Shown: positions 5,692 to 28,902 of the stretch, in pieces
How positions within the stretch are numbered: position 1 is the first letter of the stretch
Layout of the letters: each line of letters opens with the position of its first letter
Virus record (IMG/VR): IMGVR_UViG_3300021127_000030
Span: 1-28,902 of that record
Reading direction: 5' to 3' (one strand)
DNA from: a virus
Length of the DNA: 28,902 bases
The notes under the pieces: generated by a model
Databases searched by the model: none
Told to the model about the DNA's origin: nothing
What the model saw: only the letters and a program-made list of their open reading frames with translations
Program-made: the position numbers and the translations under genes

Positions 5692-8600
5692 TTATAGTAT
5701 GTATGTTCTTTGTTCAAAATCAATGAAATTTGAACGATCTTCTGCTTCAATTGTTTGTGTTCTTAGATCTAGGTCTATGGACCATATCATTGTGTCTGCT
5801 TCTATAGGCCACACAAATAAATCTTTTTCAATAGTCCAAGTTAAGTTTGGATCCAAATGAATCTTGGTTGCTAGAACCAATTCGAAACTTAATGCTTGTA
5901 TGTGTGCTTGGGCTTGAACCTGTTTGCCAGCATTGACAGTTAAATTGGTATGGCTGACAATTTGAATAGAATCTGTTCTAATTCTAGTGCCAGTTACAGT
6001 TATCGAACTTGTAGCGTGTAAATTGGCCTGTTCTTCTCCAACTAAGCCGCCTTTGGCTGTCAATGTGCTTGTGGCAGATAATGTGGCTTGGGCAACTCTA
6101 ATATCCTGACCAACTACTAGTTCGCTAGCCAATGCTTGAATATGTACGCTTGTGCTACGAGTTCTATTAGCTGAACTTGTAATTGTTGTGGTTGAATATA
6201 AATTGGCTGAACCCAATACTCTACGACTCGCTTGAGCGGTTAACTGTGAGGTAGCAGATAAATTGGCACCGTCGTGTTCAATTCTATAATCTCTAGCTGT
6301 TAATTGTGTGGTTACAAATAAGTTGGCAGAGAATTGAATAAACTTGTAACTGGTAACACTAATTGAACTTGTTGCTGATAAATTGCTTGAAGTGCTTCTA
6401 ATTCTGCTGATGGTTTCAGTTAATGTAGTGGTACTAACTAAATTGCTTGAAGTGCTTCTAGTTCTGCTGGTTGTTTCAGTTAATGCGGTGGTACTAGATA
6501 AATGTATTTCATCATTCTTGGTAGCACGACAAATAACAGTGGTATTGAACTGATCTGTTAAGGCCGCATTGAATTGTTTAATGCTACCAATTACAGAAAC
6601 CAAATTACTGGTACTGGCCAATGAGACAGTGATGCCTCTAATACGACTGGTAATTTGGATCAAGGTTGAAGTGCTGGCCAAATTGGCTTGAGCACTATCA
6701 GTGGCTGTATCTACAACAGTTAATTGGGTGGTACTGGCGATAGAGACCGAAATAGGCCTAATTCTATAGGCAGTGATTGAACAGTTGCTATTTGCTTGTA
6801 AAGTGGCTGTAACAGCACGGGATCTGCTTGTAACTTCCGTTAAAGTTGAGGTGCTATTTACAGTTTGACTAATTCTACCTATTTTAACCAGGGTCGCTAC
6901 CAGAGTACACGAAGAGGTTAAATTCGCGACATCTGCGGAGCTTTTAGCCGAAACGACAACTTCGCTGGATAAGGCCAATAAGGTCAAGTTGATTCGTTTG
7001 ACACTTGTGGCATTGGCTGTTACTGTGGCCTGACAATTGAAACTGGCACGTGCTGGTTTAGTACCTAATGCGGTAACAGTTTGAGTTGTGGTTGCTGTTA
7101 AATTGCCAGTACCATAACGGATTCTAATATCATTGGCTGTTTGGGTTGATCTACTGGTTAATGCGGCTGTACCAAATGTTAGTTTACTAGCATTGGTTGT
7201 TTGATTACTTTGGCTGGACAATGAAGCTGGACAATTTCTTAATTTACCAGCAAGAGTAGTTTGAGTTGAATAACTAGATAATGCGGCTGAAATCGATTTA
7301 TAACCACTAGTATCATCAATTAAATTATTATTGAAATGTAATAGTAGTTTGGTTGTTGATAAACTACCATCATATATTTCACTGTTTGAAGTGGTATTGG
7401 TAACACTACTTGTACCATAGGCAATAAACAATTCATCTATGGTTAGTGGTTGATTATTATAAGTAGAGGCACTATTACCATTAGACCAATTACCAGCACC
7501 GATACGCAATGGCCAACCTGTATATCCATTGGTAATAGCAATAGCAGTCCAATAAGTTACAGTATTATAATTAGTACCATTGGCTACTACTGAAAAAGTT
7601 AATTGCTGTCCAATTCTTGTAATAGTCCATTTTGATTGATATGAAAATGCTGAAGCCGATATCTGATTAGAAACACTACTATTATAAGCATTAAAAGTTC
7701 CATATATCGAAGAACCTGATGTATTATCTAAAACAATGTTCCAACCAGAACCAGCACCACCAGTTACATATCCTGGTCCAGGACCCCACCCTATAATTTC
7801 TGTTGGAAAATTTCTATTGGCATTTAATGAAACAGGTTGAAGATAAAAACTTATGATAAAATCGGTATTGGCAGGAATATTAAATTCTGAATTACCATCA
7901 CTAACCTGTAAAAAATCACCACTATTGTTATGATAATTATATCCAGGAAGACTTATGCTTGATCCATAAAATTTATGAGTACTATCATAAGTTATGGTAC
8001 TACCGTTATTCCAAGGATAAACAGCAAATGGACGCTGGTATAGATATGTCTGACTTGGATTACAATATATTTTACTACTACTAGATAAAGCAAGACTGGC
8101 ATTTTTAGTTTTAATCGCATTAATTGTAATCGTACTAATGCTAGATAGCGTTATTGTGGTTAATCGTGTTCTTGTTGTAGTTTCAGTTAATGAACTTGTG
8201 CTAGATAATTGCTTGGTTATACCAGCAACACGATTGCCAGTGACACTAATCGTTGAACGAGTAACCATTGCGTCAACGCCATTCTTATTGGCAAAGCAAA
8301 CAAGGCCAATAGTGAACAAGGCATATTCAGCACTGGCATCAGTTCTTATTCTTATATAAGACTGTGTTTGTGAGAATGTACTGACTAAATTGCTACTATA
8401 ACCAGTAACTTTTTTACTAATTGTGGTTTGCGTTGTGGAGGCTTGTAAAGTCTTGGCAATGCTAACAGTCTTAACAGCAATAATGGTGATTGAACTGGTA
8501 ACAGACAATGAGACACTTGTATTGCGAACACAACTAGTTGTTTCAGTTAATGTACTGGCGGAATATAAATTGATCTGATCATTCTTTGTAGCACGACAAG

Positions 8601-10161
8601 TAAATGTAGTTGAGAATTGATCAGTTAATGCCGCAGAGAACTGAACAATCTTGTAATCAACGGCTGTTAAGGCACTTGTACTGGTTAAGCTAACTGATGT
8701 GCTTCTTGCTCTGCTGGTGGTTTCAGTTAATGAGCTGGTACTGAATAAATGTATCTCATCATTCTTTGTGGCGCGACAAGTAATGATTGTATTGAATTGA
8801 TCAGATAGTGTGGCAGAGAACTGAACAATTTTGTAATCAACAGCAGTTAAGGCACTTGTACTGGACAAATTGGCACTGACATTGCGAAGCCTAATTTGAT
8901 CTTGAGTTAATGTTGAACTACTAGATAAATTGGCAGTGGCAGATTCAATCTTGTAATCAACAGCCGTTAATGTTGAACTAACAGTTAATGCTATTGTGGT
9001 TGAACGGAATCTATTGCCACTTGTGGTAATAGCAGTTAAGACATTTAGATTTACCTCATCATTCTTTGTGGCTGTACATACAAGAACAGTTGAGAATTGA
9101 TCGGTTAAATTAGCTGATGCCGATTGTAATCGACCAACTGTGGCAGTAATAGTGGATTGACTTGATAAGGCAGCACTGGCATCTTTGACTGATCTAAAAC
9201 TTATAGCATCAGCGGTTATGTTAGATGTACTAGATAAGTTCGCTGTGAATCCAACAAAATGAACAAAATTAACAGTTTGATTAAAGGTACTGGCTAATGC
9301 GCTATTGAAATTTCTTGTTCTTGTTTGATCTTCAGTCAATGAAAAAGCCGCTGATGTCGCGGCTTGATATGAACGAATACGATAATCAACCGCAGTGATG
9401 CTGGCAGTACTGGCCTGAGCACTTGAATACAATCTACTTCGTGAACCTGTGGCCACAATGCTGGTTGTGGTACTTAATGCTGTGTTGACTGTTCTTATAC
9501 GACTAACAGCAATGGCAATTGAACCAGTGCTGAATGCGTGTAATATTATTTCTCTAGTTTCTTGGCCATACGCTGATTGTGTAAATGAACTGGTCAAACT
9601 AGCACTATCATTTCTTGTTCTACTTGGCGCGGTGTTTATGGTAGCAGTTGAACTTAATGAACTAGATGAATTTTTAATTGCTTGAGCAGTTGTGGTTTGA
9701 CTACTTGTACAAGTCAAATTGCTTTGAGCTTGTTGTAAACGAATTCGATTGGCTGTAATTGAGATTGAACTTGAACTACCACCAATAAAGGTATAATCAT
9801 CACCAAAATAATTTACAGCATATGGTGTTAGGTCAACTAGAGCAGATTGTAATTTACCACCCAATGCGGTTTGACTTGTGGTTATAGCTAATGCTGTGGC
9901 AACAGAACGAATTATTGTTGTAGTTTCAGTTACTGTACTTGAACTTGATACACTGGCATTTGTATTTCTAATTCTACTTGGTGTAACAGTTAATGTGCTG
10001 GTATCAAACGCAATTAAAATAGTGGTCTTGATATCACCACCAAAGGCAACCACAGTGGACTGACTGGCAACACTGGCAGCCGCATCAGCCGTGTAGACAA
10101 AATAGTCTAGGCTAGGTGTAAAATAGCCATCGGTTAGATAAAATTGATCTTGTGTTGACAT
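5692..10161 (-). CDS. Giant repetitive tail fibre/adhesin with LamG-like domain, 1489 aa
   Basis: Starts MSTQDQFYLTDGYFTPSLDY. Most of the protein is made of repeats of about 17-20 residues of the form A-x-L-S-S-T-S-x-L-T-x-x-x-x-R-I-R, rich in Ser/Thr. Four or more higher-order units carry a variant such as ALTDQFSTTFTCRATKND followed by LTETTSRTRSTS. At about residues 695-945 a unique domain interrupts the repeats. It contains SSISLPGYNYHN, FIISFYLQPVSL, SKWTITRIGQQLTFS, PLTIDELFIAYG and KLLLHFNNNLIDD; the order and motifs fit a LamG/concanavalin A-like carbohydrate-binding fold. The C-terminus is non-repetitive (LTWTIEKDLFVWPIEADT). It likely forms a long beta-structured fibre binding host surface glycans. 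No ribosome-binding site is evident 7 bases after the previous stop, so it is probably coupled. Confidence 0.88.
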   Translation of the reverse strand: MSTQDQFYLTDGYFTPSLDYFVYTADAAASVASQSTVVAFGGDIKTTILIAFDTSTLTVTPSRIRNTNASVSSSSTVTETTTIIRSVATALAITTSQTALGGKLQSALVDLTPYAVNYFGDDYTFIGGSSSSISITANRIRLQQAQSNLTCTSSQTTTAQAIKNSSSSLSSTATINTAPSRTRNDSASLTSSFTQSAYGQETREIILHAFSTGSIAIAVSRIRTVNTALSTTTSIVATGSRSRLYSSAQASTASITAVDYRIRSYQAATSAAFSLTEDQTRTRNFNSALASTFNQTVNFVHFVGFTANLSSTSNITADAISFRSVKDASAALSSQSTITATVGRLQSASANLTDQFSTVLVCTATKNDEVNLNVLTAITTSGNRFRSTTIALTVSSTLTAVDYKIESATANLSSSSTLTQDQIRLRNVSANLSSTSALTAVDYKIVQFSATLSDQFNTIITCRATKNDEIHLFSTSSLTETTSRARSTSVSLTSTSALTAVDYKIVQFSAALTDQFSTTFTCRATKNDQINLYSASTLTETTSCVRNTSVSLSVTSSITIIAVKTVSIAKTLQASTTQTTISKKVTGYSSNLVSTFSQTQSYIRIRTDASAEYALFTIGLVCFANKNGVDAMVTRSTISVTGNRVAGITKQLSSTSSLTETTTRTRLTTITLSSISTITINAIKTKNASLALSSSSKIYCNPSQTYLYQRPFAVYPWNNGSTITYDSTHKFYGSSISLPGYNYHNNSGDFLQVSDGNSEFNIPANTDFIISFYLQPVSLNANRNFPTEIIGWGPGPGYVTGGAGSGWNIVLDNTSGSSIYGTFNAYNSSVSNQISASAFSYQSKWTITRIGQQLTFSVVANGTNYNTVTYWTAIAITNGYTGWPLRIGAGNWSNGNSASTYNNQPLTIDELFIAYGTSSVTNTTSNSEIYDGSLSTTKLLLHFNNNLIDDTSGYKSISAALSSYSTQTTLAGKLRNCPASLSSQSNQTTNASKLTFGTAALTSRSTQTANDIRIRYGTGNLTATTTQTVTALGTKPARASFNCQATVTANATSVKRINLTLLALSSEVVVSAKSSADVANLTSSCTLVATLVKIGRISQTVNSTSTLTEVTSRSRAVTATLQANSNCSITAYRIRPISVSIASTTQLTVVDTATDSAQANLASTSTLIQITSRIRGITVSLASTSNLVSVIGSIKQFNAALTDQFNTTVICRATKNDEIHLSSTTALTETTSRTRSTSSNLVSTTTLTETISRIRSTSSNLSATSSISVTSYKFIQFSANLFVTTQLTARDYRIEHDGANLSATSQLTAQASRRVLGSANLYSTTTITSSANRTRSTSVHIQALASELVVGQDIRVAQATLSATSTLTAKGGLVGEEQANLHATSSITVTGTRIRTDSIQIVSHTNLTVNAGKQVQAQAHIQALSFELVLATKIHLDPNLTWTIEKDLFVWPIEADTMIWSIDLDLRTQTIEAEDRSNFIDFEQRTYIL

Positions 10162-12635: not shown

Positions 12636-13067
12636 TTAATTTAATGCTATTGTTAAATTACCACTAGTGATCTGGAATGTATCACCTGTGTCAATTTGTT
12701 TAGCAGTTGTAACAGCACCGAAGAACAATACATTACCTGATGTACTTGCGTCCATTACGGCCACGTGCGTGATTGAACCAAATGAGGCTGTTGCTGTTGG
12801 GAATGTAACAGTTGCGTTGGTAGCTGATGAACTTGGTCCTGCTCCAGTTGATGGGCTTGCGAGAGCGAATGTTACAGTTTGACGAGCATAAGCAGTACCT
12901 GAAGTTGAAACTTCATCTGTAATAATACCTTGTTGTAGGTTAGCTAATGCGTTACCACTTGTGTTGTTAAACAAAGCCACATAGCGTGTGCTAGGTGCTG
13001 AATAACTTGTTGATGTAAGTACGTGATTTAGTACTTTTGCTTCTAAATATGTTGATGCGGCTGACAT
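12636..13067 (-). CDS. Small tail/virion appendage protein, 143 aa
   Basis: MSAASTYLEAKVLNHVLTST with AAGGAG 6 bases upstream. Motifs TRYVALFNNTSGNAL, GTAYARQTVTFALA, NATVTFPTATASFGSITHVAVMD, LFFGAVTTAKQIDTGDTF. This is a common phage tail/appendage protein pattern (YVALF near the start, RQ-V-F, VTFP-A--SWG-I-H-A--D) found next to fibre genes. The good RBS and the hairpin that follows suggest high expression as a virion component. Its exact position in the particle is unknown. Confidence 0.78.
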   Translation of the reverse strand: MSAASTYLEAKVLNHVLTSTSYSAPSTRYVALFNNTSGNALANLQQGIITDEVSTSGTAYARQTVTFALASPSTGAGPSSSATNATVTFPTATASFGSITHVAVMDASTSGNVLFFGAVTTAKQIDTGDTFQITSGNLTIALN

Positions 13068-23671: not shown

Positions 23672-24541
23672 TTAGTTGATGCGAGCGTCAGCTGTGATTA
23701 CAACACCGTGTTTAGCGTTCAATGTTGTAGCACCTGCTACAGCTTTCAATACTACATCAGTAGCACGGTAAGCTGGTAGGTACAATGTGTTCATATCGAT
23801 TGAACCGCGCATTGCGTGGCCAAATGCTGTACGAGCAAACACAGCGTTAGTAGCATCAGTACCAGTTACTGGAACTAGTGCGCTTTCGTAAATCTCAACA
23901 CCAGCTAATGTACCGATGTAAAAACCACGCAATACATCGTTACCAATGTCGCTTGGATTAACATAACCAGTAGCACCACTGTATGGAAGAGTTGCTGTCA
24001 AAGATTTCTTCAAATTGTAAGCACTTGCTGGGTGTACTACAGCGTAGAATGGACCTGTCAAGCGTTGTGCTCTTAGAGTTGCGGCAGCAGCCAAGATGTC
24101 TTGTGCTGTCAATTCGTGACCGCTAGCACCAATGTCGCTGTTGTAGTTCAAACCAGAGAATTGGCTGAATACTTGAGTGTCCATTGATTCAGCAATAGCA
24201 CGACCTGATTGGTCACCCAACTGACTGAATACATCGCTGTAAGCAGAGTCACGGATCATATCTGTGATCTGATGATAAACCACGTGCTCTTGTAAGCTGA
24301 TTGTGGCAGCGTTTGTGTTGGTTTGGTGTGCTGGGCTTGCTGATTCATCAGTGATCAAGTCAGCAGTTACACGATCCCAAACTGGTACTTGTAAGTTCTT
24401 ACCAGAGTGGATTGGAGCATCGAACACAGTAACCAATTGACGAGCTACTGATGTTTCATATGCTTGGTATTGCGCCTGAGTAACCAGGTTGGCAAACAGT
24501 TCGCTATTAAGCGAGGTATTAATGTTTGATGGATATGACAT
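23672..24541 (-). CDS. Major capsid protein, 289 aa
   Basis: MSYPSNINTSLNSELFANLV with AAAGGA about 8 bases upstream. The N-terminal helix (TQAQYQAYETSVARQLVTVF) and HSGKNLQVPVWDRVTADLI lead into SLQEHVVYHQITDMIRDSAY. It then shows QSGRAIAESMDTQVFSQF, and domain A elements (AAATLRAQRLTGPFYAVVHP, GFYIGTLAGVEIYESALVPV), ending AKHGVVITADARIN. The layout (E-loop region with HVVY, a spine helix, then FYAVVHP and G-A-G-I) fits the HK97 capsid fold. It lies between scaffold and connector. No N-terminal delta domain is evident; the separate scaffold gene serves instead. Confidence 0.92.
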   Translation of the reverse strand: MSYPSNINTSLNSELFANLVTQAQYQAYETSVARQLVTVFDAPIHSGKNLQVPVWDRVTADLITDESASPAHQTNTNAATISLQEHVVYHQITDMIRDSAYSDVFSQLGDQSGRAIAESMDTQVFSQFSGLNYNSDIGASGHELTAQDILAAAATLRAQRLTGPFYAVVHPASAYNLKKSLTATLPYSGATGYVNPSDIGNDVLRGFYIGTLAGVEIYESALVPVTGTDATNAVFARTAFGHAMRGSIDMNTLYLPAYRATDVVLKAVAGATTLNAKHGVVITADARIN

Positions 24542-24558: not shown

Positions 24559-25245
24559 TTATATTTTTTTAAGAGCTTGTGCTTGTGCCCATATCTTACG
24601 GTGCGCGGCTAGGCTCATATCTAATTTTGAGATATCAATCCCATCACTAGGACCTTGATTGATATTGCTCCTACTATTGACAGTAGCAGGAGTAGCCGAC
24701 ACAAAGTGCGGATTCGAATCTAAAAATTCGCGTACTAAATCGTCGACTCCAAGAGGTTCACCGCGGTCATTATAACGAACAGTTCCTCTACTATCTACTA
24801 CTTCAACTTCACCATCATCATTTAATCGAACATTTGAACTTAATAATGCTTTTACCTGATCAGCGTTCACAGCACGGTATTTGGCAGCGGCACTGATAAG
24901 AGGACTATTAACCTTATATTCTTTAATAATGTGGTCTCTCTTTTGGATCTCTTGATCCTTTTTATAAGCAAGTTCTTGTAGAGTCTTTTCAAACTCCCCA
25001 CGCTTGAGTTGTTCAGCTTGACGGCGTTGTTCCGCTTCACTTTTCAACTGACGAAGTTCTTCTGGATCGCCCAAGTCCTCGTAAGGTTTGGTAATCTTTT
25101 TAGTGATACTTGACTTCATTCGAGCCATCATATCATCAACTTCTTTTTGTGTGTAAGACTTTGCTTCTTGTGCCTGGCTTTCACTAGCTTGTAGTGCCGC
25201 GTCAGTAGCGTTTTGTTGTGCTATGGTATTGTTATATGAGTCCAT
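24559..25245 (-). CDS. Scaffolding protein, 228 aa
   Basis: MDSYNNTIAQQNATDAALQA with AGAGGA upstream. Long charged coiled coil (YTQKEVDDMMARMKSSITKK, ELRQLKSEAEQRRQAEQLKR, KKDQEIQKRDHIIKEY, residues about 30-110), then KYRAVNADQVKALLSSNVRL, EVVDSRGTVRYNDRGEPLGV and a C-terminal helix (AAHRKIWAQAQALKKI) typical of capsid-binding tails. It stands directly before the capsid gene. Assembly chaperone of the prohead, lost or degraded at maturation. No protease gene is visible, so removal would be by exit. Confidence 0.88.
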   Translation of the reverse strand: MDSYNNTIAQQNATDAALQASESQAQEAKSYTQKEVDDMMARMKSSITKKITKPYEDLGDPEELRQLKSEAEQRRQAEQLKRGEFEKTLQELAYKKDQEIQKRDHIIKEYKVNSPLISAAAKYRAVNADQVKALLSSNVRLNDDGEVEVVDSRGTVRYNDRGEPLGVDDLVREFLDSNPHFVSATPATVNSRSNINQGPSDGIDISKLDMSLAAHRKIWAQAQALKKI

Positions 25246-25320: not shown

Positions 25321-25536
25321 TTAACCGCCTCTTCCTGACTTCTTCATTGGAACACTATGTGACATTGACGCACGAGTTCCGTGATAGTTCTTTTGTCCAG
25401 GTGCGGCACCTTTGCTACGAGCAATGGCACCAATAACACCACCAGGTACACCAGCGGCTTTTAATTGTGCCGCACGACCACCGTGACCTAATGCGTTTGA
25501 TTTACCTTCGAACTTGCCTGATTTTTTAGTATCCAT
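25321..25536 (-). CDS. Small basic Gly-rich head-region protein, 71 aa
   Basis: MDTKKSGKFEGKSNALGHGG with AAGGAGAT upstream. Very basic and Gly/Ala-rich (RAAQLKAAGVPGGVIGAIAR, SKGAAPGQKNYHGTRASMSH, PMKKSGRGG). Such short cationic proteins occur near capsid genes in many aquatic phages and are plausible DNA-binding or capsid-interior proteins. Function not established. It is separated by 75 bases from the scaffold gene. Confidence 0.68.
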   Translation of the reverse strand: MDTKKSGKFEGKSNALGHGGRAAQLKAAGVPGGVIGAIARSKGAAPGQKNYHGTRASMSHSVPMKKSGRGG

Positions 25537-25547
25537 TTAGGATCTCC

Positions 25548-26045
25548 TTATTTGTATGATTCAGCTGGAGTTTCAGGTTTACCTAATTTGCCCCAGAACT
25601 TATCTTGTTCAGGTGTTGGTAAACTAGATTCCAACATCCAACATAATTTATGAACTGTCTGTAGGTAATCAGCAACTATGTTCTGTAGACCGTATGCCTT
25701 GGCATCTCCAGTTAGTTCAAATACTTCATTGGCACAAGTGATCAAAGTATCTAAATCTGCGTATAGAATTTTGACCATTTCTTCTGCGTTAGGTGCCACT
25801 GTTTCATCTTTGATATCAGCTAGAGCAATAATCCTAGCTAGACTAAATGGCACAATCTCACCTAGTGTTTTTAAGCCTTCGGCCAAAGTGTCAATTTCTT
25901 CTTGTAGTTCTTCATAGACTTTTTGAAACAATTTATGATTACTATAAAAACCCATACCTTGTACATTCACGTGGAATCCGTGACTCTTAGTGTATAGGAT
26001 AAAGTTGTTGGCCCAAAGGCGTTTTGTTGAGTCTTCTATTGACAT
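25548..26045 (-). CDS. dps: Dps/ferritin-like protein, 165 aa
   Basis: MSIEDSTKRLWANNFILYTK with AAGGAA upstream. It matches the Dps helix layout: KSHGFHVNVQGMGFYSNHKL, FQKVYEELQEEIDTLAEGLK, then LGEIVPFSLARIIALADI, EEMVKILYADLDTLITCANE, and the helix IVADYLQTVHKLCWMLES. The ferroxidase-centre positions keep the canonical spacing of Dps proteins: His25, His37 (+12), Asp52 (+15) and Glu56 (+4). The aspartate usually four residues after the second His is Gln41, so iron oxidation may be altered. Dps binds DNA and stores iron as a hollow 12-mer. Here it lies inside the head operon, between portal-side genes and scaffold, so it could be a late protective factor or a packaged/virion protein. Family assignment is strong; role inferred. 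Confidence 0.9.
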   Translation of the reverse strand: MSIEDSTKRLWANNFILYTKSHGFHVNVQGMGFYSNHKLFQKVYEELQEEIDTLAEGLKTLGEIVPFSLARIIALADIKDETVAPNAEEMVKILYADLDTLITCANEVFELTGDAKAYGLQNIVADYLQTVHKLCWMLESSLPTPEQDKFWGKLGKPETPAESYK

Positions 26046-26046
26046 A

Positions 26047-26232
26047 TTATTTTCCTTGAGCTACCTTGGTCATATGATTGTGAACACGGCCTTCTACACC
26101 TTTCTTCTTGGCTGTTGAATGAGCTGTGTTTAAGGCGATAGCTACAGCCTGTGCGTGTGGTTTACCCGCGGCCATCTCTGTGGCGATATTTTGACCTATG
26201 GTCTTAGCTGAGTATCCTTTGATAAGTGGCAT
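26047..26232 (-). CDS. Small conserved phage protein (MPLIKGYS type), 61 aa
   Basis: MPLIKGYSAKTIGQNIATEM at 26232, with AAGGAGAT 7 bases upstream; the longer frame to 26337 runs through the neighbouring gene and is not used. Reads AAGKPHAQAVAIALNTAHS, then AKKKGVEGRVHNHMTKVAQ. The pattern K-GYS-K-I--NI--EM--GKP--QAVA-AL--A is very common in phages, typically beside portal or capsid genes. Function unknown to me. Overlaps nothing essential and ends two bases before the Dps start. Confidence 0.8.
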   Translation of the reverse strand: MPLIKGYSAKTIGQNIATEMAAGKPHAQAVAIALNTAHSTAKKKGVEGRVHNHMTKVAQGK

Positions 26233-26242
26233 TGCTATCTCC

Positions 26243-26443
26243 TTAAGCGTATGTGCTAGAATCCGTGTGGCCCATTGTGTGAAGTATCTCGCCCTGACGG
26301 TTATACAGTTTGGTTGTATAACCATCGCGGTGTTCATTCTTCATATAACTACGAGCATCTTCCTCACGAGTAAAGAAGCGTTCAATGGTTTCTAGCCTTC
26401 CAGCTATCCATTTGTGAATCTGAACTTTGTGATTGGTAACCAT
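26243..26443 (-). CDS. Hypothetical head-region protein, 66 aa
   Basis: MVTNHKVQIHKWIAGRLETI at 26443, ending EILHTMGHTDSSTYA. Contains RFFTREEDARSYMKNEHRDG and YTTKLYNRQGEIL, resembling a small beta-alpha-beta fold. No strong Shine-Dalgarno; it follows the stop of the 88-aa gene by three bases and is likely coupled. No domain recognised. Confidence 0.65.
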   Translation of the reverse strand: MVTNHKVQIHKWIAGRLETIERFFTREEDARSYMKNEHRDGYTTKLYNRQGEILHTMGHTDSSTYA

Positions 26444-26446
26444 AGA

Positions 26447-26713
26447 TTATTTCTTAGCTTCAAATTGTGGTACTGAAATTGTAGCCATATCAATTGACTT
26501 AGTAATATCACCAGATTCCATTGGACTCCAGCTTGGATTGAAATCGTGTCCTGAACCGATCTTGTTGTCAGTACGAGTTTGAGCGGCTGTTATTTCTGGG
26601 ATTGCCAGTTTCACATCTTTTGGAATTGAGCGCATACCATCACTGACAGCACTATTTCCGAATTGTTCTTGTTGACTTGCGTTTGGATTTACTCCGTTTG
26701 GTAACATTGGCAT
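26447..26713 (-). CDS. Hypothetical head-region protein, 88 aa
   Basis: MPMLPNGVNPNASQQEQFGN with AAAGGAGG upstream, a strong site. Low in hydrophobics, likely disordered: SDGMRSIPKDVKLAIPEITA, GSGHDFNPSWSPMESGDITK, ending VPQFEAKK. Probably a minor virion or assembly protein because of its place between portal and capsid modules. No family recognised. Confidence 0.65.
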   Translation of the reverse strand: MPMLPNGVNPNASQQEQFGNSAVSDGMRSIPKDVKLAIPEITAAQTRTDNKIGSGHDFNPSWSPMESGDITKSIDMATISVPQFEAKK

Positions 26714-26714
26714 A

Positions 26715-27149
26715 TTAGCCTCCTTTAGTTGGTTTAAGTGGATTTGGCCCTACTTTCGGTGGCCAGTTTACATACAATGGTTTCTTGACAGGATCCACTC
26801 CTGCTGGGAAATTGTATTTCTTTTGAGCGGCGCTTTGTAAAGCACCATACATCTTGTCGCTATTGGGACCATAACTGTCTACAGCCTGTTGGGGCATTAT
26901 TTCGCCTTTGGTATTCCAGTTCAAGGCCTGTGCTGGATTACCCATATCGGTCTCAGTAAAAGGCTTACCAGGCACAATCATAGGCGCACCTTGACGACCC
27001 ATAGGTGGTTCATAGTTAGGTCCAGCAAATAGATTCATCTCACTAGCGTGATAGTCTGTTGGGACTAGGTTGCCACTGTGTGTATCTATTTGTGTACCAG
27101 CACGGATTCGCTCCCGGGCATTTGTTGTCACATTCTTTTGAGGTTTCAT
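26715..27149 (-). CDS. Hypothetical head-region protein, 144 aa, Pro/Asn-rich
   Basis: MKPQKNVTTNARERIRAGTQ at 27149, ATGA-type overlap with the end of the portal gene. Largely disordered and Pro/Gly/Asn-rich: NLFAGPNYEPPMGRQGAPMI, MYGALQSAAQKKYNFPAGVD, and a closing YVNWPPKVGPNPLKPTKGG. A structural or internal head protein is plausible from context. I do not recognise a fold. Confidence 0.65.
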   Translation of the reverse strand: MKPQKNVTTNARERIRAGTQIDTHSGNLVPTDYHASEMNLFAGPNYEPPMGRQGAPMIVPGKPFTETDMGNPAQALNWNTKGEIMPQQAVDSYGPNSDKMYGALQSAAQKKYNFPAGVDPVKKPLYVNWPPKVGPNPLKPTKGG

Positions 27150-28681
27150 AATTGATTACCTGTTGTCTTGGCACTGGTCTTCATATTCAAGTTGGGCAAG
27201 TTCAATGTGGATTTGCCTGTGGGCTGTGAACTTACCTTGATATTACCATATTGATCTACGGTAGCAGGACCTTCAGCACTTGGTTCAACTTCTTGTTGAT
27301 TATAATTTTCAGTAACCTTAGCTAGTTCTTCAGAAGTAGCACTTGGGCCAGCTTCTTCAATTGATAAATCTTCTGCTAGTAATTCAATCAACTTGCGGTC
27401 AATCATAGCCAGTACATCTGGACTTGTAGCAGAGGCCTTGGCCACTTGTAATTTGGTGTATTCAGCGTTCTTGTCCTGGATACCATAACTGTCTTGATAA
27501 CGAATTTCGCCTGTCCATTCGCGAGCTTGGAACCTAGCAAAGATTTCCCACAACTGTTCTTCAGCATCTTCTAAGTTGCCGGCCATCTCTGCCAGTTTGG
27601 CATTGAGCAATTGAAATTCAGTTGCCATTGCCACGCCTGACAATAATTTCTGTCCACTAGCACGAACACTACCAGTATTGGCCATTAGGTCAATAGCGGC
27701 TGTGGCGTGGTCAATACTTTGATATATTCCGCCTATTTGTGCGCCTGAGGTTTCTAAAAGATATGGTTTTAAGCCTGGATCCAAATTCTCTGGCATAGCA
27801 ACTATGCTGCCAGCGCCAGCGGAGGCCATAGTTTCATTGGTCTTTACCAATGAAGGGTGATTGTCTAGTCTAATTGCCTGTTCTACTTCACTGAGTTGAT
27901 TATAGATAAACTGTTGTGTCTTGGCAATATCTTGAATAGCACTAACACCAAAGCCTCTTACTAAGGATTTTTGATTGTAAACAATAACTAGAGGAATAAA
28001 GCCCAAGTTATTAGGTACCACAGTTTCAGCTAATTCTTCGCGGGTGTCATAGTTGACTTCGTGTGTGGTGATAGTTTCTGTGGTCCATTCTTTAACAGTC
28101 TGTACTGAGCCATTGATCTCTTCCACATATTTCACATAGACTAGTTCATAGCGTCCTGTAACATCACGCTCCCAACGCCAGTCTATAACAACTAGGGGAC
28201 TTAGAATCGACGCATAAGGTCTAACACCAACAGCTTCTTCATCGGCCTTGGTAATAGCACCTATATCTGGCTTGCTCATTAATACCCAGCAATGACCAAA
28301 CACACTTGCCCAGGTTGAAACTTCTTTCATAAAGGCATCAAGGTCGCGGCCATCAAGGTCCGCATCATCCAGAAAATCTAGTGTTTCTGGAAGGCCTTCT
28401 AGTGTGCCAAGATCACGCTCGGGTTTTTCCTGGAAGAGAAAGCTATTGTAGACATTGATGACCGACTTACAATGGTTATGAAGAGGAGTTTGCTGTAAGC
28501 GTTGTCCATACTCCATATCTGTTTCTAGTTGATATCTAGTGAGCAATTGATAGCGTTGATAATCCTCACCGCCCATATAGCTTACTAATAAGAAGCGCCA
28601 GTTGGCACGGTTATAGTTGTAGAATCTGTTGGGACTGGCAATACGCCCCAGCTGTTCATCAACAATTTGAATTATACTCAT
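27146..28681 (-). CDS. Portal protein, 511 aa
   Basis: Starts MSIIQIVDEQLGRIASPNRF at 28681, overlapping the terL stop (ATGA); an in-frame start 17 codons upstream lies inside terL and is discarded. Typical portal content: YNYNRANWRFLLVSYMGGED, HNHCKSVINVYNSFLFQEKP, DLDAFMKEVSTWASVFGHCW, PYASILSPLVVIDWRWERDV, then the long helical crown-wing region (FGVSAIQDIAKTQQFIYNQL, VEQAIRLDNHPSLVKTNETM, SGQKLLSGVAMATEFQLLNA). The C-terminal 60 residues are polar and likely disordered. Forms the 12-mer through which TerL pumps DNA. Secure from motif and context. Confidence 0.93.
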   Translation of the reverse strand: MSIIQIVDEQLGRIASPNRFYNYNRANWRFLLVSYMGGEDYQRYQLLTRYQLETDMEYGQRLQQTPLHNHCKSVINVYNSFLFQEKPERDLGTLEGLPETLDFLDDADLDGRDLDAFMKEVSTWASVFGHCWVLMSKPDIGAITKADEEAVGVRPYASILSPLVVIDWRWERDVTGRYELVYVKYVEEINGSVQTVKEWTTETITTHEVNYDTREELAETVVPNNLGFIPLVIVYNQKSLVRGFGVSAIQDIAKTQQFIYNQLSEVEQAIRLDNHPSLVKTNETMASAGAGSIVAMPENLDPGLKPYLLETSGAQIGGIYQSIDHATAAIDLMANTGSVRASGQKLLSGVAMATEFQLLNAKLAEMAGNLEDAEEQLWEIFARFQAREWTGEIRYQDSYGIQDKNAEYTKLQVAKASATSPDVLAMIDRKLIELLAEDLSIEEAGPSATSEELAKVTENYNQQEVEPSAEGPATVDQYGNIKVSSQPTGKSTLNLPNLNMKTSAKTTGNQL

Positions 28682-28902
28682 ACTCTCATTCCTTGAATTG
28701 TAGGACCTTTGTAGACGCCCTGATGTCCCCAACGCTGTGTAGTCACTGGGAACTGACTTGTATCTCTTCGCACTGGGAACAAATAATCGACCAAATAACC
28801 CAGTGCGTCATTCATATGATCGTAACCACTATCCTTGTCAGGCTGTACTGTGCCTTCTTTGTAAGTGTGTCGTTCTAAACTCTCGATAGTGTATTTACAC
28901 TG
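28678..28902 (-). CDS. terL: Terminase large subunit, C-terminal part (continuation across the circle junction)
   Basis: This end carries a second copy of the 99-base overlap (28804-28902) and then 41 codons plus stop that complete TerL. The segment reads DKDSGYDHMNDA, then LGYLVDYLFPVRRDTSQFPV and ends KGPTIQGMRV. The DH--DA pair is the expected last acidic motif of the terminase nuclease. Stop TGA at 28680-28678 overlaps the portal ATG at 28681-28679. Confidence 0.95.
   Translation of the reverse strand, partial: QCKYTIESLERHTYKEGTVQPDKDSGYDHMNDALGYLVDYLFPVRRDTSQFPVTTQRWGHQGVYKGPTIQGMRV
28804..28902. repeat. Direct terminal repeat, right copy (99 bp)
   Basis: Identical to bases 1-99; see the left copy. 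Merging the two gives a single circular molecule of about 28,803 bases with an intact terL. Confidence 0.97.

Follow-up and report, generated by a model that had tools for sequence, protein, structure and literature searches.

A predicted Dps-type mini-ferritin gene recurs between the portal and scaffold genes of a phage lineage

Introduction

Phage-encoded Dps proteins are already known (PMC6669764; PMC7881722; PMC8008677). They are usually classed as auxiliary metabolic genes, whereas the lineage described here recruits Dps repeatedly beside the portal gene. In the phages represented in PHROG 3636, which include Salmonella phage 7-11, Proteus phage Privateer and Kuravirus, Dps lies among genes of DNA and nucleotide metabolism, and the Privateer protein was found by mass spectrometry (MS) in CsCl-purified virions (PMC7881722). 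A ferritin-like protein, gp217 of Vi01-like phages, was also seen by MS (PMC10892097). Likewise, the Gratiaviridae, a different phage family that infects gut Bacteroides, encode ferritin-like oxidative-stress enzymes, DPS and Mn-catalase, and the accessible part of the report mentions neither a portal-scaffold position nor domains shared with the portal (PMC8008677).

The Dps studied here is encoded in a viral DNA stretch of 28,902 nt from IMG/VR (record IMGVR_UViG_3300021127_000030), hereafter called the window. It shares with bacterial Dps of the PA0962/HP-NAP/MrgA type (PDB 8ff9, 3t9j and 2chp) the four-helix fold with a BC helix (TM 0.81-0.82, Z about 22) and the metal ligands, but is 27-33% identical to them, carries HGFHVNV in place of HNxHWNV, has an extra conserved C-terminal tail, and lies in a head operon instead of a stress regulon. 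Its identity with the Dps of phage 7-11 is 28% (tblastn), and the Privateer protein is likewise distant; unlike the window gene, neither of these lies between portal and scaffold, and Dps was located outside the head module in all annotated phage isolates inspected. In the open-access papers searched, neither recurrent portal-scaffold Dps recruitment nor portal proteins bearing HiPIP domains were found described, and the recurrent portal-linked Dps arrangement appears to be new.

Results and Discussion

Gene layout around the Dps gene

The window carries minus-strand genes for a tail tape measure protein, a tail fibre, a portal, a scaffold and a major capsid protein, a gene set by which the genome is classed as siphophage-like. 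The IMG sample numbers of its closest relatives are presumably those of lake water, and the source was taken to be a lake. The genes of the head module run on the minus strand in the following order:

27146..28732, minus strand: portal protein, 528 aa from a TTG, with an internal ATG near 28681 as the likelier start (phrog_145, E 8.5e-55; PF05133)
26715..27149, minus strand: g144, a small conserved head-module gene, in relatives L072 and L073 also found downstream of a type-2 Dps
26447..26713, minus strand: g88, a small gene
26243..26443, minus strand: g66, a small gene
26047..26337, minus strand: g96, a small gene with a phrog_2423 motif; an internal ATG near 26232 with a ribosome-binding site is the likely true start
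25548..26045, minus strand: Dps-type mini-ferritin gene, type 1 (HGFHVNV signature), 165 aa from an ATG (Pfam, PHROG, PDB match, AF2/Foldseek/VIA)
25321..25536, minus strand: 71-aa small protein, basic and glycine-rich, in the interval between Dps and scaffold
24559..25245, minus strand: head scaffolding protein (phrog_2303, E 2.4e-5; PF06810 below cut-off; synteny)
23672..24541, minus strand: major capsid protein (PF25209; phrog_267, E 2.9e-14)

The head-operon location that the original prediction had given to the gene was thus confirmed, with the portal on one side and the scaffold and capsid genes on the other. The Dps reading frame, whose translation begins MSIEDSTKRLWANNFILYTKSHGFHVNVQG, is preceded by an AAGGA ribosome-binding site, and its ATG lies 1 nt past the g96 stop. 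When an internal promoter ahead of Dps was sought, the promoter-like matches did not exceed those in shuffled sequences; judged from its operon position, the gene would be expressed late.

Elsewhere in the window, positions 5692-10161 encode a 1489-aa protein with a weak PHROG match only (E 0.0013), and positions 12636-13067 match Pfam Gp80 (podophage GP4 fiber I protein, E 7e-34), yet the phage has a tape measure gene.

Fold and ferroxidase centre

The translation scored 66.5 bits against Pfam PF00210 (Ferritin; cut-off 24.5, E 3e-18), matched PHROG 3636, whose label reads 'DNA binding protein', with E 1e-30, and found the P. aeruginosa Dps PA0962 (8ff9) as its best PDB sequence (E 2e-19), while no unrelated family came up in the profile search. 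The AF2 single-chain model (pLDDT 84.9, pTM 0.79) has helices at residues 3-27, 33-60, 69-75, 87-115 and 118-140, of which the short 69-75 helix between B and C is the BC helix, and it superposed on solved Dps structures with a Foldseek TM of 0.82 and a VIA Z of about 22. By profile and model, the open reading frame at 25548-26045 can be regarded as a genuine Dps-type mini-ferritin, as originally predicted. The E. coli-type Dps equivalog NF006975 gave 34.4 bits against a cut-off of 114, and the cyanobacterial Dps equivalog models stayed far under their cut-offs; the protein is classed by its sequence as a member of the Dps family and not as an orthologue of either equivalog.

The predicted ferroxidase ligands, numbered presumably as in HP-NAP, are the following:

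25971..25973, minus strand: His25 codon (alignment; position computed from the ORF)
25935..25937, minus strand: His37 codon (alignment)
25890..25892, minus strand: Asp52 codon (alignment)
25878..25880, minus strand: Glu56 codon (alignment)

These four residues, which the original prediction had recognised as a ferroxidase centre, are unchanged in 36 of 36 aligned type-1 and clade-3 homologues, and so are their equivalents in 11 of 11 homologues of a second Dps type (both types are described below). The prediction had also singled out Gln41 as replacing the usual Asp. The glutamine is real but not striking, since position 41 varies freely among relatives (Q, K, E and others), and the idea that Q41 abolishes the ferroxidase centre was rejected on this variability and on the invariance of the four ligands. 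In addition, purifying selection on Dps is strong, with dN/dS of about 0.05-0.14 (dN about 0.07 and dS about 1.5 between the window and L003). The intact ligands and the strong purifying selection, together with the Fe-S-type partners present in relatives, argue for an iron/peroxide chemistry, and the iron or oxidative-protection role that had been among the originally proposed functions gains support at this level.

The same data bear on a purely structural co-option, in which the Dps fold would serve as a portal plug or as a minor head protein that lacks ferroxidase chemistry. The window gene does lie between portal and scaffold, a frequent place for minor head proteins; however, ligands invariant over 47 divergent sequences and Fe-S-type partners in relatives do not fit such a role, and we consider it very improbable.

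Charge and the C-terminal tail

The window Dps is acidic, with a pI of 4.81 and 15 basic vs. 25 acidic residues, and no Lys/Arg-rich tail was seen at its N- or C-terminus. Type-2 Dps proteins share this acidity, with pI values of 4.3-4.7 among those computed. The C-terminus of the window protein is formed by a distinct tail:

25551..25619, minus strand: C-terminal tail, residues 143-165, PTPEQDKFWGKLGKPETPAESYK (alignment of relatives)

Within the window clade, this 23-residue tail is 91-96% conserved, compared with 72-89% identity for the protein body, and its codons carry 6-9 synonymous changes in relatives when the window is the reference. A C-terminal tail is present in the window clade and the second type-1 clade only, and the tail is absent from clade-3 and bacterial Dps. 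That of the window protein is free of Cys, contains four positive and four negative charges, and showed no significant match to the portal and scaffold proteins.

Condensation of the genome for packaging had been another of the originally proposed roles. E. coli-type bacterial Dps condenses DNA, and the label of PHROG 3636 points the same way; however, the acidic character of the protein, its charge-balanced tail, the lack of a basic extension and the equal acidity of its type-2 counterparts give such a role no support. The DNA-condensing role was therefore rejected on charge, and its probability is rated as minimal.

The portal-scaffold slot in relatives

The relatives collected by IMG/VR scans with the window Dps fell into three groups by identity to it: the window clade at 74-100%, clade 2 at 48-55% and clade 3 at 38-42%. 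All three share HGFHVNV, vs. the HNxHWNV that is commonest among sampled bacterial Dps. The window clade and the second clade keep the order portal-(small genes)-Dps-scaffold-capsid, while in the third clade Dps is located elsewhere, outside the head module. In L046, the order is terminase-portal-Dps-scaffold-capsid, with a 4-nt overlap of portal and Dps. The second Dps type (type 2) has the signature HNxHWxV; a scan with it added contigs, and type 2 lay between portal and scaffold wherever both were mapped. In type-1 clade 2 and in phages with a type-2 Dps, the Dps start falls at -4 to +10 nt relative to the portal stop, while the type-1 Dps of the window comes after g96. The mean identity between type-1 and type-2 phages is 34% for Dps, 60% for the capsid protein and 50% for the portal. 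At L017:2830-3206, the Dps reading frame is split over two frames, which indicates a pseudogene or a sequencing error.

Slot content was assayed without bias towards Dps, by a scan seeded with the capsid protein that yielded 80 loci. Both portal and scaffold were present in 63 of them, which formed 37 clusters at 90% portal identity, and Dps occupied the slot in 20 of the 37 (12 with type 1 and 8 with type 2). The Dps-less relatives carry other genes there, for example endonuclease VII (L081:1934-2290 and L122:4357-4704). With 17 of 37 clusters lacking a slot Dps and with other genes in its place, Dps is not required for head assembly, nor is it a core gene of the lineage. A gene in the slot of pelagiphage HTVC111P looked MuF-like by eye, and this identity was dropped for want of a convincing Pfam or PHROG match.

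In the portal tree, the type-1 clade of the window is nested among type-2 portals, with five state changes overall. L072 and L073 have capsid proteins 84-85% identical to that of the window, yet they carry a type-2 Dps directly after the portal. Together, these results indicate that one Dps type has probably replaced another at the slot in the lineage of the window. On this comparison of loci, the Dps gene is no stray insertion, the phage lineage having filled the spot repeatedly and with two Dps types, a recurrence that the original prediction had missed.

In the Dps tree, the phage types were placed apart from 30 bacterial Dps with an SH-aLRT of 98, in a quick tree of 146 columns with long branches among isolates. 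Two scans of genome contigs gave a single hit, a truncated phage-like contig that had been binned with a Legionella MAG. A recent capture from a host dps gene is therefore unsupported. Dps divergence correlated with portal divergence inside each type, with Mantel r values of 0.72 and 0.40 that include any effect of genome relatedness.

Domains exchanged between Dps and portal proteins

Some type-2 Dps proteins end in a HiPIP-like domain. All 12 domains collected from Dps and portal proteins of relatives match PF01355 (best E 1.5e-5), and the L114 domain alone scores above the cut-off; they have four conserved Cys and a W, and solved HiPIPs are their best PDB matches, while the AF2 model of the domain alone is of low confidence (pLDDT 54). 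The Dps of other relatives ends in a distinct Cys-rich domain or in a short 'HTMTNPxTGE...GYT' (TG) motif, which may be a small interaction module. All three modules are also fused to the portal C-terminus in other relatives, as follows:

L090:1635-1850, L098:4434-4649, L102:3494-3700, L105:2054-2260 and L101:648-857: HiPIP-like domain at the portal C-terminus of Dps-less relatives
L042, L142, L143, L145, L157 and L163: Cys-rich domain (GNCAAFN...GYC...CAAARTCDAWVAGGP) at portal C-termini, no Pfam match
L082, L112, L115 and L147: Cys-rich domain of the same type (GNCAAFN...GYC...CAAARTCDAWVAGGP) at Dps C-termini
L150, L153-L156, L158, L160 and L161: motif HTMTNPxTGE...EH..A...GYT at Dps C-termini
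L092, L122 and L127: motif HTMTNPxTGE...EH..A...GYT at portal C-termini

Of 54 dereplicated clusters, 13 have a module on Dps, another 13 have one on the portal, and none has modules on both. The Dps bodies of L113 and L115 are 96% identical and bear different modules. Modules occur as separate genes as well: the Cys-rich domain lies directly upstream of Dps at L051:7463-7954, and at L065:5455-5815 a stand-alone HiPIP gene lies directly upstream of a truncated HGFH-type Dps on the uncultured Legionella MAG contig, which is probably a phage-like virus contig binned with that MAG. The window as a whole gave no HiPIP profile match, and neither the Cys-rich domain nor the TG motif is present in it. 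The bacterioferritin-Bfd system pairs a ferritin cage with an Fe-S electron carrier ferredoxin. The Dps-HiPIP proteins of relatives resemble it in joining a cage and an Fe-S carrier, but the joining is a covalent fusion and the carrier is of HiPIP type, not a [2Fe-2S] Bfd.

Portal C-termini face the capsid lumen. A module common to portal and Dps therefore suggests the same site of action for Dps. The shared fusion partner could also be explained by recombination at the gene junction, with no physical contact between the two proteins.

Proposed role of the head-module Dps

The conserved position, the coupling to the portal gene and the domain swapping between portal and Dps suggest a virion- or portal-associated role. 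The explanation that we prefer, and to which we give roughly an even chance, is an active mini-ferritin of the head module that protects DNA and acts next to the portal or procapsid. The protein would be translated together with portal and scaffold and assemble into a predicted 12-mer, in which Fe2+ would be oxidised with H2O2 or O2 at inter-subunit ferroxidase sites and the ferric product stored. Fenton damage to phage DNA would thereby be suppressed late in infection, and the DNA under packaging would be protected. The genetic evidence favours a site of action beside the portal or procapsid, possibly virion-borne, over general protection of the cytoplasm, and by analogy with Privateer a residence in the virion is plausible.

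The cytoplasmic alternative follows close behind. As an auxiliary gene (moron) without any link to the head, an active Dps would guard the infected cell and the replicating phage DNA from iron and H2O2, the late operon offering a permissive slot and strong late expression. The content of the slot is variable and includes endonuclease VII, other phage Dps genes adjoin DNA and nucleotide metabolism genes, and DPS and Mn-catalase of the Gratiaviridae are interpreted as conferring oxidative-stress tolerance (PMC8008677). Against it stand the return of two distinct Dps types to one slot, the alternation of appendix domains between portal and Dps, and the lineage-specific, conserved tail of the window clade, so that we hold this account to be somewhat short of even odds. 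Head association in turn is opposed by the Dps-less clusters and the other slot genes, by the third clade and all inspected isolates, in which Dps lies outside the head module, and by the window Dps itself, which has no Fe-S appendix and is separated from the portal by four small genes.

A more specific form of head association would be a redox or iron device sited within the capsid at its portal. In this reading, a Dps cage would be co-assembled with the procapsid and carried in the virion, with a HiPIP or Cys-rich domain added on portal or Dps in relatives, and would keep Fe2+ and H2O2 off the packaged DNA or deliver a ferroxidase with the genome; this is possible, though on balance unlikely. 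Much less probable still is a 'Ferrojan horse', in which mineralised iron or an iron-loaded protein would travel with the virion and help it to bind or feed the host. The ferritin-like gp217 seen by MS in Vi01-like phages was so read by its authors; that hypothesis, however, concerns tails, whereas the window gene belongs to the head module, and the authors observed no dependence on TonB or FeoB uptake systems (PMC10892097).

Under the preferred reading of an active mini-ferritin next to the portal, the swap of Dps types and the exchange of iron-sulphur-like domains with the portal suggest a tie between iron/redox chemistry and head building or genome packaging. Carriage of ferritin by phage particles becomes directly testable, and the arrangement could bear on how phages persist in lake water rich in iron and peroxide.

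Three predicted structures in BFVD (A0A6J7XDU5, A0A6J7WPK9 and A0A6J7WIS1), each of an uncultured phage 'Prohead protease', show a Dps-like domain; if these domains are real, Dps would be fused to another head protein too.
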